From an uncultured Acidimicrobiaceae bacterium (GTDB lineage: Bacteria > Actinomycetota > Acidimicrobiia > Acidimicrobiales > Ilumatobacteraceae), in the NCBI GenBank assembly GCA_937890395.1, contig CALACK010000037.1, positions 1-52,909 on the forward strand: a DNA stretch of 52,909 nt, in the 5' to 3' direction. A model generated the notes under the pieces. It made no database searches and was not told where the DNA came from. It was given only the letters and a program-made list of their open reading frames with translations. Both the position numbers and the translations under genes were made by a program. Position 1 is the stretch's first letter. Every line of letters begins with the position of its first letter. Below are positions 5,136 through 9,172 of the stretch, piece after piece.

Positions 5136-5897
5136 ATGACACGACCAGACGGACGCCAGCACAATGAACTTCGAAATCTGAAATTCGAGCGCGACTTTAC
5201 GGAGATGGCAGCAGGGTCGGTACTTGTTTCGTTTGGTAAAACTCGGGTGTTGTGCACCGCATCAATAGATGAAGATGTTCCGCGATGGATGAAAGGCAAA
5301 AATAAAGGTTGGGTCACTGCTGAATATTCAATGTTGCCTGGTTCGACACCTGACCGTAATGATCGTGAAGCCGCCAAGGGTAAACAAGGTGGACGCACGA
5401 TAGAGATTCAACGACTCATTGGTCGCGCTCTTCGTTCATGTTGTGACATGACACTGCTTGGCGAGCGTCAAGTGATTGTCGACTGCGATGTGCTGCAAGC
5501 CGATGGCGGCACGCGCACTGCGAGCATTTGTGGTGCTTATATTGCATTGCATGATGCATTGACACGAGTGATGCAAAACGGTTTGATCAAGACACATCCG
5601 TTGCATTCACTGTGTGCTGCAGTCAGTGTTGGCATTCACAATGGTCAGCCTGTGTTAGATCTTCCTTATGTTGAAGATAGTTCTGCTGAAGTTGACATGA
5701 ATGTCGTGATGTTGCAGGCGCATGACGGCGGTGAGGCGAAGTTTGTTGAAGTGCAAGGCACTGCCGAAGGTGCCGCATTTAGCCAAGCACAACTTGCTGA
5801 TCTTTTGTCGTTGGCAACAAATGGACTGCGCGAAGTGTTTGCGTTGCAGACACAAATTCTTAAAGTCGCGCCAGCACCAAGACCGCAACAAAAATAA
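5136..5897 (+). CDS. rph: Ribonuclease PH
   Basis: Phosphorolytic 3'-5' exoribonuclease that trims tRNA 3' ends. Hallmarks are [11 protein letters not shown] at the start, [20 protein letters not shown], and the phosphate-binding [13 protein letters not shown], then [16 protein letters not shown]. The 253-residue length is typical, with a short Pro/Gln-rich end. It has one of the clearest ribosome binding sites in the window (GGAGGG before ATG). It is followed after one base by rdgB, so translation is probably coupled. In this genome the tRNA at 7503-7575 lacks an encoded CCA, so 3' trimming and CCA addition matter. Confidence 0.96.
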
Positions 5898-5898
5898 A

Positions 5899-6483
5899 AT
5901 GTTGCGCGTCGCTTGCGCATCGGCAAACCCGCATAAGGTAGCTGAAATTTTTGATCTAATGGGTGGTGTGATCGAACTGATCGCTAGGCCGTCTGAATTG
6001 ACTGAAACCCAAGAGACAGAGTCAACGCTCGTTGGCAATGCGCGGCTGAAGGCTGTGGCTGTTTGTCTCGCGACTGGGTTGCCTGCGCTCGCTGACGATA
6101 CTGGGCTTGAAGTTGATGCGCTAGACGGCGCACCTGGAGTATTGACTGCACGATTCGCGGGGGTTAATGCAACTGATGCCGAGAATCGCACCAAAATGCT
6201 GAGTGAACTTTTAAATAAACCACGCACCGCCAGATTTCGAACTGTAGTTTTGTTGCACTTTACTGATGGTCGAGAAATTATTGCCCAAGGTGTGTGTGAA
6301 GGTTCAATTGCGACTTCTCAACGAGGCGAGCGAGGGTTTGGTTACGACGCAATTTTTATTCCAAGTCTTGGCGATGGGCGAACTTTTGCCGAGATGAGTA
6401 TTGAAGAAAAGCATTTACTCTCTCATCGCGGTCTTGCTTTGAGAGCTCTTGCAAAGAGTCTTGAAGATCTACCAACCGCGTAG
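5899..6483 (+). CDS. rdgB: XTP/dITP pyrophosphatase (RdgB/HAM1 family)
   Basis: House-cleaning enzyme that hydrolyses non-canonical purine triphosphates such as dITP and XTP to the monophosphate. Visible motifs are ASANPHKVAE (the family SxNxxKxxE), ADDTGLEVDAL, GVLTARFAG, GERGFGYDAIF and the C-terminal SHRGLALRAL. The ATG at 5899 begins the conserved MLRVACAS; the frame stays open upstream inside rph, but that part is an overlap artefact. Length 194 residues is normal. Its last 15 bases overlap the convergent D-threonine-aldolase-like gene. Confidence 0.94.
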   Translation: MLRVACASANPHKVAEIFDLMGGVIELIARPSELTETQETESTLVGNARLKAVAVCLATGLPALADDTGLEVDALDGAPGVLTARFAGVNATDAENRTKMLSELLNKPRTARFRTVVLLHFTDGREIIAQGVCEGSIATSQRGERGFGYDAIFIPSLGDGRTFAEMSIEEKHLLSHRGLALRALAKSLEDLPTA

Positions 6484-7497
6484 ATCGATTTGCCAGCACT
6501 CTAAAATTTCATCAGCTCGCATTGCCCAAGCTGCTGAATGCATCGACATAGTCGGGTCTATATGCGATGGTCGGACCAAAAGTTTCTCTCCGATATTTGC
6601 GAGCGCAACTGCTGAATCTTTTTTCGTAACTAGTGCGGTGTGTTCATCGGCACAAAATAAAACGTCATAGCCGTCAACAGATGGGTTGCCATGATCTGTT
6701 GTTAGAGATTTAAGGCCAACATCAATTACCAGCCAGTCTTGACTGCGCGAGATCACCGTGCCAAGTACGAAGCATGCTTGCACAAACGGAATTTTTAGTT
6801 CTGCGTATTGCGTATCCATCAACGCGTATGAGCCGGCTTGCAATTCGTTGATGCATGTGTCGTCGTGCATATCCCAGGTGCCAGTACCACCAGCAGAAAC
6901 AATTTCACCTCCAACATCTTGTGCGGCACGGCCTAGTAAAGTCATCGACTCGTCAACACGTTTTTTTCGTTTTTCGTCGCCATTGACCATCATCAAGTGG
7001 CCTTCGTATCCCATCACGCCACGAACTGTCATGCCAGCTTTTCGAGCAGTGTCGGCGAGTTGTCCGGCGAGTTCTGGTGCGACACCGCAACGTGGCAAAC
7101 CAACATTGACATCAATCACTACATCGCGTAAACCCGCACGCACCGCGGCCTTAATCGTTTCGATCGAATCAACGGCAATTGTTACTCGTACATTTTCTGA
7201 AACTTTTGCTAATGCGCTGAGTCGCTCGGCGTCGAGAACTTCATTGGCGAGCAAAAAATCTGAGCCAACGCCGGCTGCGGCCATGCCAATAATTTCGCGC
7301 GGTGTTGCACATGTGAAATTTGTATGACTGTGACTTAATTGCAGACGCGCAATCTCTGTGCACTTGTGCGCTTTCGTATGTGGTCGCAATTTCGAATCAG
7401 GGTGACGTGTAGACATCGTCGATAAATTTTTTTCAAGTGCGTCAATGTCAATTAACAGTGCTGGCGTAGCTAGTTCGGCAGTTTTACTCGGGTTCAT
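6469..7497 (-). CDS. D-threonine aldolase / D-serine dehydratase-like PLP enzyme
   Basis: 342 residues with an alanine-racemase-type N-terminal barrel and a metal-binding C-terminal domain. The likely PLP lysine is Lys42 in LRPHTKAHK; CATPREIIGMAAAG and GVMGYEGHLM are typical barrel strands. The C-terminal HIDPTMSMH contains the His-x-Asp metal site of D-threonine aldolases, whereas D-serine dehydratases have His-x-Cys. It probably cleaves or dehydrates a D-3-hydroxy-amino acid; exact substrate unknown. The ATG lies five bases behind the 3' end of a tRNA gene on the same strand, so the message should come from a joint tRNA-mRNA transcript. Confidence 0.85.
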   Translation of the reverse strand: MNPSKTAELATPALLIDIDALEKNLSTMSTRHPDSKLRPHTKAHKCTEIARLQLSHSHTNFTCATPREIIGMAAAGVGSDFLLANEVLDAERLSALAKVSENVRVTIAVDSIETIKAAVRAGLRDVVIDVNVGLPRCGVAPELAGQLADTARKAGMTVRGVMGYEGHLMMVNGDEKRKKRVDESMTLLGRAAQDVGGEIVSAGGTGTWDMHDDTCINELQAGSYALMDTQYAELKIPFVQACFVLGTVISRSQDWLVIDVGLKSLTTDHGNPSVDGYDVLFCADEHTALVTKKDSAVALANIGEKLLVRPSHIDPTMSMHSAAWAMRADEILECWQIDLRGW

Positions 7498-7502
7498 ATT
7501 TG

Positions 7503-7575
7503 TGCCGACGGCGAGACTCGAACTCGCACTGGCGGCGTCCTAAGCGCCGTGCCTCTGCCATTGGGCTACGTCGGC
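7503..7575 (-). tRNA. tRNA-Leu (anticodon UAG), atypical short variable loop
   Basis: The minus strand folds into a full cloverleaf of 73 nt. The acceptor stem GCCGACG/CGTCGGC, anticodon stem CGGCG/CGCCG and T stem GCGAG/CTCGC are all perfect, and the T loop is TTCGAGT. The anticodon loop CTTAGGA gives UAG (7540-7542), which reads the leucine codon CUA. The D-arm is leucine-like: a 3-bp stem (GCC/GGC) and a loop with GGCAGA, matching the G18 G19 N A20a G20b A21 pattern of class II tRNA-Leu. The discriminator is A73, as leucyl-tRNA synthetase expects. The variable region is only CCAGT (5 nt), whereas normal bacterial tRNA-Leu has a long arm. CCA is not encoded. Confidence 0.93.
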
Positions 7576-7614
7576 CTTGCGCAGTAAGAGTAGTGGTTCG
7601 AGAGCAATCTTTGG

Positions 7615-7627: not shown

Positions 7628-9172
7628 TTGACTTCAACAAATACAGCCTCTCATGGATCTAGCAGTGTTTTAGACGCGTCAGCATTGGCAGGCCAACTTG
7701 GCTTGGCGGACACGATTGTTGACCAGCAAGCCCTAGACAACAGCGTCGCACTTTGTGCCAAAAATAATGTTTTGTTGCCAACATTTGCCCAACTTGCAGA
7801 CCCTTCGCTGATTGACGCAAATTATGCAAAGGGTGTTGACAAGAATGCACCCGATGCGCGCAACTTATTTCGTGTGCATTGGTATAACAACATGAAAGGC
7901 GATCGCGTTGATGTCCCTGACCATGTTGTCTTGCCAACTTCATTAACTGGCATCGAGAGTCCGATCATTGTGATGTTTGGTGATCGGTTTCCAATGATCA
8001 CGGCACACAAAGTTTTGGCTGCGTATTCTTGTTTGGCCCCGCGAGTAATCACTGGGCAGTTCGACCCAAGTCGACATCGCGCAGTTTGGCCATCGACGGG
8101 CAACTATGCTCGCGGCGGAGTAGCGATCAGTCGAATTATGGGCTCACGCGGTGTCGCAGTGTTGCCGGCCGGTATGTCGCAAGAGCGTTTTGATTGGCTA
8201 GATAAATGGGTGAGTGACCCGAGTGATGTTATTCGCACGCCGGGCACCGAAAGTAACGTCAAAGAAATTTACGATGCATGCAACGAGATGGAAAAAGACC
8301 CGAAGAATTTTATTTTTAACCAGTTCTGTGAGTTCGGCAATCATGTTGGCCACTACGAAGTTACTGGTCGTGCCTTATCAAATGTCTTTGACCATGTAAA
8401 TAAAAATTCTGGTGGCAAGTTGCGCCTTGCCGCTTTTACATCTGCGACCGGCTCGGCTGGCACGATCGCCGCTGGCGACAGACTCAAAGACGACTACGGT
8501 ACAAAAATTGTTGCGGTTGAAGCCCTTGAGTGTCCGACGATGCTAGAAAATGGTTTTGGTGAGCACAACATTCAAGGTATTGGTGACAAACATATTCCAC
8601 TTATTCATAATGTAATGAACACTGACGTCGTAGTCGGTGTGTCAGATCATGCAACTGATGAACTTGACGTGATGTTTAACACTGACGCTGGTTGCAAATA
8701 TTTAGCTGAGCGCAAAGGTGTGCCAGTAGAAATTGTTGAGACACTCAAGCATTTTGGTTTCTCAGCGATTTGCAATGTAATTGCGGCAATTAAAACTGCA
8801 AAGCTTCTCGGACTTGGTGCAAACGATGCGCTAATCACGATCGCCACAGATGGCGCAGATTTGTATCCAAGTGAGAGAGTAAAAACTTTGGCTCGTCGTT
8901 TCGAAAACTCGTTCAGCGAAATTGACGCCGCTGAAGTGTTCGCCGAGCACCTCGCAACTGTCGGTACCGACGCGATGATTGATTGCACAGAACGCGACCG
9001 AACACGAATTTTTAATCTCGGTTATTACACATGGGTAGAGCAGCAAGGCACCCCACTAGCAGTATTTGAAGCCCGGCGCTCGCAGTCGTTTTGGCGCGAC
9101 TTACGCAAGTACCTTCCCGTCTGGGACGAACTCATCGGAGAGTTCAACCGTCGGGTTGTTGCCGCAAAATAA
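7628..9172 (+). CDS. Large PLP-dependent fold-type II enzyme (cysteine-synthase-like)
   Basis: 514 residues, longer than ordinary cysteine synthases (about 310). A lysine in [13 protein letters not shown] occupies the PLP-lysine position, and [11 protein letters not shown] corresponds to the SxGN substrate loop. A Ser/Gly-rich turn, [12 protein letters not shown], fits the phosphate-binding loop. The family is often annotated just as 'PLP-dependent protein, beta subunit'; its reaction (beta-elimination or replacement on an amino acid) is not known to me. The start is TTG 7628, supported by a -10 box 7 bases upstream; no ATG or GTG occurs before the conserved region. Five bases behind it follows another fold-II PLP enzyme, so the two probably form an operon. 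Confidence 0.85.

Follow-up and report, generated by a model that had tools for sequence, protein, structure and literature searches.

A class I tRNA-Leu(UAG) in the place of the class II isoacceptor in an uncultured member of Acidimicrobiales and its relatives among Actinomycetota

The tRNA-Leu(UAG) gene and its neighborhood

The analyzed stretch of 52,909 nucleotides, hereafter the window, is contig 37 of a fragmented metagenome-assembled genome (MAG) with a size of 2.17 Mb, 219 contigs, 91% completeness, and 32 tRNA matches. ARAGORN called a single tRNA in the window, tRNA-Leu(UAG) on the minus strand (7575..7503). The host is probably a freshwater member of Acidimicrobiales near Ilumatobacteraceae, since among the 80 UAG loci examined in other genomes (see below) the closest named stretch, L219, belongs to an actinobacterium of a lake metagenome (89% identity over 8 kb); next in similarity were MAGs labeled Acidimicrobium and Ilumatobacteraceae and a few MAGs with other labels. 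The locus contains the following features:

7503..7575, minus strand: class I variable-loop tRNA-Leu(UAG), 73 nt, CCA not encoded (ARAGORN; Rfam RF00005, 58.0 bits)
7540..7542, minus strand: anticodon UAG, reading CUA, in the loop CUUAGGA (sequence; ARAGORN anticodon tag)
7528..7532, minus strand: 5-nt variable loop CCAGU, with the Levitt pair U48-A15 (sequence; relatives)
7554..7556, minus strand: A20a-G20b-A21 of a leucine-type D-loop (sequence; comparison of D-arm layouts)
7503..7503, minus strand: discriminator base A73 (sequence; 68 of 68 distinct relatives)
6469..7497, minus strand: gene of a 342-aa PLP enzyme (Ala_racemase_N and D-ser_dehydrat), with its ATG after a 5-nt spacer from A73 (Pfam; the spacer recurs in relatives)
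5722..6483, plus strand: rdgB (Ham1 family), marking the tRNA-Leu(UAG) locus in relatives; the actual start codon may be farther downstream than listed (Pfam Ham1p_like)
7628..9172, plus strand: divergent gene of a PLP-dependent enzyme on the opposite flank of the tRNA, in the same syntenic block (Pfam PALP)

Direct reading of the gene from 5' to 3' gives GCCGACG-UA-GCC-CAAUGGCAGA-GGC-A-CGGCG-CUUAGGA-CGCCG-CCAGU-GCGAG-UUCGAGU-CUCGC-CGUCGGC-A, with the acceptor stem GCCGACG/CGTCGGC, a 3-bp D-stem GCC/GGC, and the D-loop C-AA-U-GG-C-AGA. The RF00005 match has an E-value of 5e-10 and exceeds the Rfam gathering score of 29, which places the gene within the tRNA family. The initial annotation had described a UAG cloverleaf with A73, a 3-bp D-stem, A20a-G20b-A21, and a variable loop of 5 nt, and all of these elements were confirmed by ARAGORN, Rfam, and direct reading. 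The identity elements of tRNA-Leu (A73, A15-U48, G18G19, and A20a) are present, and the D-arm layout is common to the four class II tRNA-Leu genes found in the same genome and to none of the 27 distinct non-leucine tRNAs found there. The variable loop CCAGU is shorter than the class II arm of 10 nt or more, and the acceptor and T stems of 7 and 5 bp differ from the 8/4 or 9/3 arrangement of allo-tRNAs. The gene fits the class I tRNA-Leu lineage of Actinomycetota, a category defined in the present analysis by C12-G23, C13, a D-loop of the form A-A..GG.AGA, a variable loop of about 5 nt ending in U48, and A73.

The arrangement of the tRNA and the downstream enzyme gene recurs in the genus. In 23 readable genus loci (among the window, 7497-7503, and loci L001-L028), A73 lies 4–6 nt ahead of the downstream ATG, and the frame that follows has 342 codons in 18 of them, is cut by a contig end in 3, and is shorter in 2. 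Spacers in further genera of the family measure 1 nt (L027), 2 nt (L021 and L028), or 15 nt (L026). Trimming of the tRNA 3' end would leave a nearly leaderless mRNA of the enzyme gene. Most genus loci conserve a short motif like CACTACTCTTAC roughly 10–25 nt ahead of the tRNA (about 7577-7600 in the window), which may serve as a promoter for either the tRNA or the divergent gene.

Distribution and conservation of class I tRNA-Leu

The gene was found in 25 of the 29 genomes of the genus (in one of them as a 24-nt piece at a contig end), as well as in several other genera of the family; copies elsewhere in the genus are 96%–100% identical. A covariance model built on nine sequences gave scores of at least 73 bits for members of the lineage and at most 50 bits for other tRNAs of the window's genome. 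The covariance search for actinobacterial relatives proposed in the initial annotation revealed many: at E ≤ 1e-11, matches were obtained in 110 of 396 genomes of the phylum, at least one of these 110 being a false match. Of 68 matched places that were read, 67 were class I tRNA-Leu with the anticodon UAA, CAA, or UAG, and one was tRNA-Thr (L134). One of the 67 class I genes was called Phe by ARAGORN due to a shift of the anticodon by one base. About a quarter of the sampled actinobacterial genomes carry class I tRNA-Leu, and it is usually the only tRNA found with that anticodon.

Genomes of named species were scanned for the UAG version, which yielded at least 119 stretches, and 79 of the 80 examined hold class I tRNA-Leu(UAG). 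Besides Ilumatobacteraceae, the carriers include Amycolatopsis, Lentzea, Actinopolyspora, Prauserella, Nocardioides, Catellatospora, Dactylosporangium, and others. The false matches L134 and L188 (the latter without class I tRNA-Leu) were left out, and the pattern match L152, which contained no tRNA, was dropped. A match in Thermomicrobium roseum, considered as a relative outside the phylum, was rejected because it represents tRNA-Lys.

Matches were also present in 86 phage records, of which 65 belong to Streptomyces or Mycobacterium phages and 21 to Erwinia, Salmonella, Hafnia, or Thermobifida phages. Two of these records were read; both tRNAs are short-armed, have the anticodon UAG, and are annotated as tRNA-Leu, one of them with an extra base in the D-loop. 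A strict pattern had no matches in viral contigs, although annotated actinophages carry relatives. Class I tRNA-Leu thus stands in public annotation as tRNA-Leu at least in phages, while the class itself seems unremarked.

For the analysis of conservation, the R1 set comprised 98 genes, and three unparsed ones were left out (one truncated by a contig end, the other two having variant D-loops). The 80 UAG loci were excluded from the conservation counts because they had been picked by a pattern fixing part of the variable loop. Among 68 distinct relatives of the model-based set, A73, C12-G23, and C13 were present in all 68, and A15-U48 was present in 66, being replaced by G15-C48 in the other two. 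The parser imposed A14, R15, GG, AGA, and a YT-N-A-R anticodon frame, so the D-loop letters are not independent, while A73, U48, C12-G23, and C13 were free to vary. The anticodon was UAA in 42 relatives, CAA in 14, and UAG in 12, shifting among leucine anticodons only. Of the 20 stem pairs, 12-23 and 53-61 were invariant, and the other 18, distributed over all four stems, occurred as compensatory pair types; the non-pairing cells numbered eight, all in the anticodon stem. These compensating changes across the lineage and the 96%–100% identical copies across the genus indicate that the tRNA of the window is not a chance structure.

Replacement of the class II gene at a shared locus

In 200 genomes of the window's family, class I tRNA-Leu(UAG) was found in 106, class II tRNA-Leu(UAG) in 65, neither in 29, and both in none, against 34 co-occurrences expected if the two were independent, a calculation that ignores kinship. 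In 79 assemblies with ≥90% completeness and ≤5% contamination, the numbers were 42 and 34, respectively. Both states occur in different species of one genus, with class I in eight and class II in two g34 genomes and in seven and eight g36 genomes, respectively. Class I tRNA-Leu takes the place of the class II isoacceptor with the same anticodon. The search for a second, class II tRNA-Leu(UAG) in the window's own genome, suggested in the initial annotation, found none; this assembly is incomplete, which makes the absence weak on its own, and the case rests on the relatives.

The same pattern was observed across the phylum in 60 chosen genomes; as these were 50 known class I carriers and 10 genomes without a class I gene found, their proportion is no measure of frequency. 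In the 50 carriers, 59 of 60 genome-anticodon pairs had no class II counterpart; when the class II sets were shuffled among the genomes in 10,000 rounds, the mean number of shared pairs was 30.6 and the minimum was 17, compared with one observed. Two out-of-register class II matches (G098:C1:5168581 and G134:C1:1777175) were dropped from this count, and class II AAG was counted as GAG. Class I and class II CAA genes coexist in just one of the 50 genomes, G326, whose class I copy (L110, G326:C1:2228428-2228500) begins with CCCGGTG and looks divergent. Counting both classes, 41 of the 50 genomes had all five leucine isoacceptors, and the other nine were without one or two by the patterns used, which means that the patterns or the assemblies miss some genes. 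In two complete genomes, every match of class II length was read: G447 has class II GAG, CAG, and UAG with class I CAA and UAA, and G091 has class II GAG, CAG, and UAA with class I CAA and UAG. Among the sequences read, the isoacceptors supplied by class I genes were UAA, CAA, and UAG, and never CAG or GAG.

In all five genomes examined from the window's genus, a class II tRNA-Leu with the anticodon AAG was found (for example, L061, G000:C70:78325-78408) and none with GAG; the AAG form was also found in G076, G099, and G162. If A34 becomes inosine, this tRNA could serve CUU, CUC, and CUA, and the class I gene may therefore not be the sole reader of CUA in the genus.

The distance between the tRNA and rdgB is about 1 kb in the window. 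Of 14 other genomes searched, 13 have rdgB and tRNA-Leu(UAG), class I in 10 and class II in 3, on one contig within 4.9 kb; the exception is G057, with rdgB at a contig end and the class II UAG gene on another contig. Surroundings of up to 16 kb were compared, and two loci were taken as syntenic when they shared two or more non-overlapping reciprocal-best gene matches. Class I and class II loci of the same anticodon reached this level in 54 of 56 pairs for UAG and 20 of 24 for CAA, against a background of 1 of 375 pairs of loci with different anticodons. For UAA, none of 18 pairs did so, and class II UAA loci match one another in 2 of 15 pairs. Ten class II UAG genes could be oriented with respect to rdgB, and all of them point the same way. 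Class I genes share this orientation in the window, G029, G032, two g36 genomes, and G038 (the genera including g2, g5, and g36), and are inverted at the usual site in G091 and G469 (g34), G173 and G480 (g37), G215, G454, and G437, that is, in g34, g37, g38, g268, and G437. Two class II UAG genes of g34 (L313 and L314) have a very short variable region and exceed the class I gene of another g34 species by only 6 nt; judging from their length, they are a possible intermediate form.

The class I genes of g36 and g34 are equal at 67 of 73 aligned bases, while the class I and class II genes within one genus are equal at 55 of 73 in g36 and 60 of 73 in g34. This greater likeness of class I genes between genera and the inverted class I genes suggest displacement by a ready-made class I gene, and the shared rdgB locus, sometimes occupied in the opposite orientation, points to displacement of the whole gene, which we infer as the route. 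The comparison suggests that such displacement at a fixed site is to be favored over repeated deletion of the arm, with the g34 genes leaving room for arm loss. A tree based on 63 columns, which are too few to settle the origin of the lineage, had a largest pure class I clade of 54 of 66 tips and placed the UAG copies loosely with class II tRNA-Leu and tRNA-Gln. We tentatively suggest, as a scenario falling somewhat short of probable, that a portable and old class I lineage has repeatedly displaced class II UAA, CAA, and UAG genes, those for UAG and CAA at the site of the class II gene itself and the UAG gene in either orientation, switching within genera and perhaps being carried by phages. 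If so, LeuRS charges two tRNA classes side by side, and the long arm is dispensable in nature.

The initial annotation had considered a tRNA-Leu that lost its arm. This alternative, in which the variable arm of a class II tRNA-Leu(UAG) was deleted in place, in one genus or several, with later adaptation of the core, appears unlikely, though it is the strongest of the rival readings. It agrees with the shared locus and with the class II-like orientation in the window, g2, g5, g36, and G038, but not with the inversion relative to rdgB in the five cases listed above. The class II UAG arms of the family are already short, with the g34 gene reaching 80 nt to the discriminator base, 6 nt more than the class I gene, and the nearest class II tRNA-Leu differs at 12 of 63 structural columns; at the same time, the acceptor stem, D-arm (C12-G23 and C13), and variable loop of class I are common across genera. 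The class I and class II genes of g34 still match over 76 nt (75% identity, E 1e-9), whereas the class II gene L307 and the class I gene L305 of g36 gave no match at E up to 1. Arm loss is possible for the lineage as a whole, while its repetition in place looks less likely than displacement, given the inverted genes and the closer likeness of class I genes across genera.

Decoding, aminoacylation, and comparison with known tRNAs

CTA accounted for 147 of 16,053 codons in 48 non-overlapping open reading frames of the window, which were picked by length and are not all surely genes. To assign the codon, 11 of 15 alignments were used (6 first and then 5, several in part). In LysRS, biotin carboxylase, a MoeB-like protein, and an EAL-domain protein aligned with solved homologues, leucine stood opposite CTA at 14 of 27 residues, compared with 85 of 154 for the other five leucine codons; five more alignments, among them that of a pyruvate dehydrogenase E1-like protein, gave 10 of 24 and 56 of 131, respectively. 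CTA thus faces leucine about as often as other leucine codons do, and by this measure CUA is read as leucine.

One LeuRS gene above the family cut-off was present in each of the 15 genomes searched (11 with class I tRNA-Leu found and 4 without), and no second LeuRS exceeded the cut-off in any of them. A possible link between LeuRS architecture and the presence of class I tRNA-Leu was rejected: an alignment break near profile position 142 also occurs in G321, where no class I gene was found, and is absent in the class I carriers G326 and G253. According to the account in PMC9976931, E. coli LeuRS relies on A73, A15-U48, G18G19, and A20a, the long arm is not among the identity elements, and a minimal tRNA-Leu without the long arm is still charged. 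Charging of class I tRNA-Leu by the normal LeuRS is expected by analogy, since the lineage keeps the identity elements used by the E. coli enzyme.

The gene of the window very probably encodes a working elongator tRNA-Leu that reads CUA, is charged by the single ordinary LeuRS, and replaces the class II tRNA-Leu(UAG). LeuRS would charge it through A73, the leucine-type D-loop (G18G19 and A20a), and the A15-U48 core, and the leucylated tRNA would act as an elongator decoding CUA. The class I lineage of Actinomycetota would supply UAA, CAA, or UAG isoacceptors, the class II gene having presumably been displaced at its own locus by the class I gene in the case of UAG and CAA. This explanation has direct support in the structure, the conserved identity elements, the mutual exclusion, the shared locus, the leucine meaning of CUA, and the single LeuRS; we infer transcription and charging.

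A specialized or orphan tRNA acting beside normal decoding, for example in tRNA-dependent peptide synthesis, regulation, or tolerance of an anticodon nuclease, is improbable. The odd structure, the position of the gene at the start of an apparent tRNA-enzyme transcription unit, and the occurrence of class I tRNA-Leu(UAG) in actinophages could be cited for such a role, but the class II gene is replaced rather than accompanied (none of 200 family genomes has both), and the codon CUA is in common use with the meaning leucine. Within the second option of the initial annotation, a distinct lineage is thus supported and a specialized one is not. Reassignment of the codon, whereby a non-leucine tRNA captured the UAG anticodon and CUA no longer means leucine, would suit the class I body and has precedents described for yeast and Ashbya mitochondria (PMC3874161, PMC7609411); we rejected it as highly improbable, because CTA faces leucine in conserved proteins as often as other leucine codons do, A73, A15-U48, and the D-loop are of the leucine type, and the anticodon of the lineage moves among leucine anticodons only. 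A mis-called or mis-assembled tRNA or a pseudogene, conceivable in a fragmented MAG, can practically be discarded in view of near-identical copies in other assemblies of the genus, more diverged ones in named isolate genomes, and compensatory stem changes.

Reviews describe tRNA-Leu as class II outside organelles (PMC7609411, PMC4033280, PMC9976931). A search of the open literature by title and the start of the abstract found no paper on class I tRNA-Leu in bacteria; subscription journals were mostly outside this search, and prior notice is possible. The class I structure of tRNA-Leu is known from mitochondria, while the bacterial case has apparently been little noticed. The class II rule for bacterial tRNA-Leu has a widespread exception, in which short-armed genes stand in for the normal ones in many actinobacteria. 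This represents a natural experiment on tRNA recognition by LeuRS and a caution for isotype classifiers relying on arm length. Because a single locus switches class within a genus, the evolution of tRNA class can be put to a direct test, and class I tRNA-Leu may be of use in genetic-code engineering as a compact scaffold that is armless by nature.

Compared with class II tRNA-Leu of the E. coli type, as described in PMC9976931, the tRNA of the window has the same A73, A14, A15-U48, G18G19, A20a-G20b-A21, 3-bp D-stem, and leucine anticodon, and in relatives it occupies the same chromosomal locus as bacterial class II genes (UAG and CAA); it differs in having a 5-nt variable loop in place of the long arm and C12-G23 and C13 where class II genes have other bases. 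The armless E. coli tRNA-Leu constructs of Larkin et al. (2002) are, as reported in PMC9976931, leucylated if A73 and the contacts of the D- and T-loops remain, but these were laboratory-made and also missed the anticodon arm, whereas the tRNA of the window is natural and complete. Human mitochondrial tRNA-Leu(UUR) is likewise class I, lacks a long variable arm, and is charged by LeuRS with A73 and A14 as the main elements, according to PMC9976931. The tRNA of the window, in contrast, is bacterial, forms a well-paired cloverleaf, and reads CUA, and the two forms are presumably of unrelated origin. Allo-tRNAs, bacterial tRNAs with 8/4 and 9/3 stems described in PMC7609411, where some 9/3 ones have leucine anticodons, are similar in being bacterial tRNAs of unexpected architecture, but the tRNA of the window combines normal acceptor and T stems with a short variable loop. 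The tRNA-Leu(UAG) genes read in Mycobacterium phage BobsGarage and in Streptomyces phage Sushi23 likewise have a short variable loop and a closely similar D-arm; they differ from the gene of the window in being phage-borne, located in tRNA clusters, and about 80% identical to it, with one additional base in the D-loop of Sushi23.
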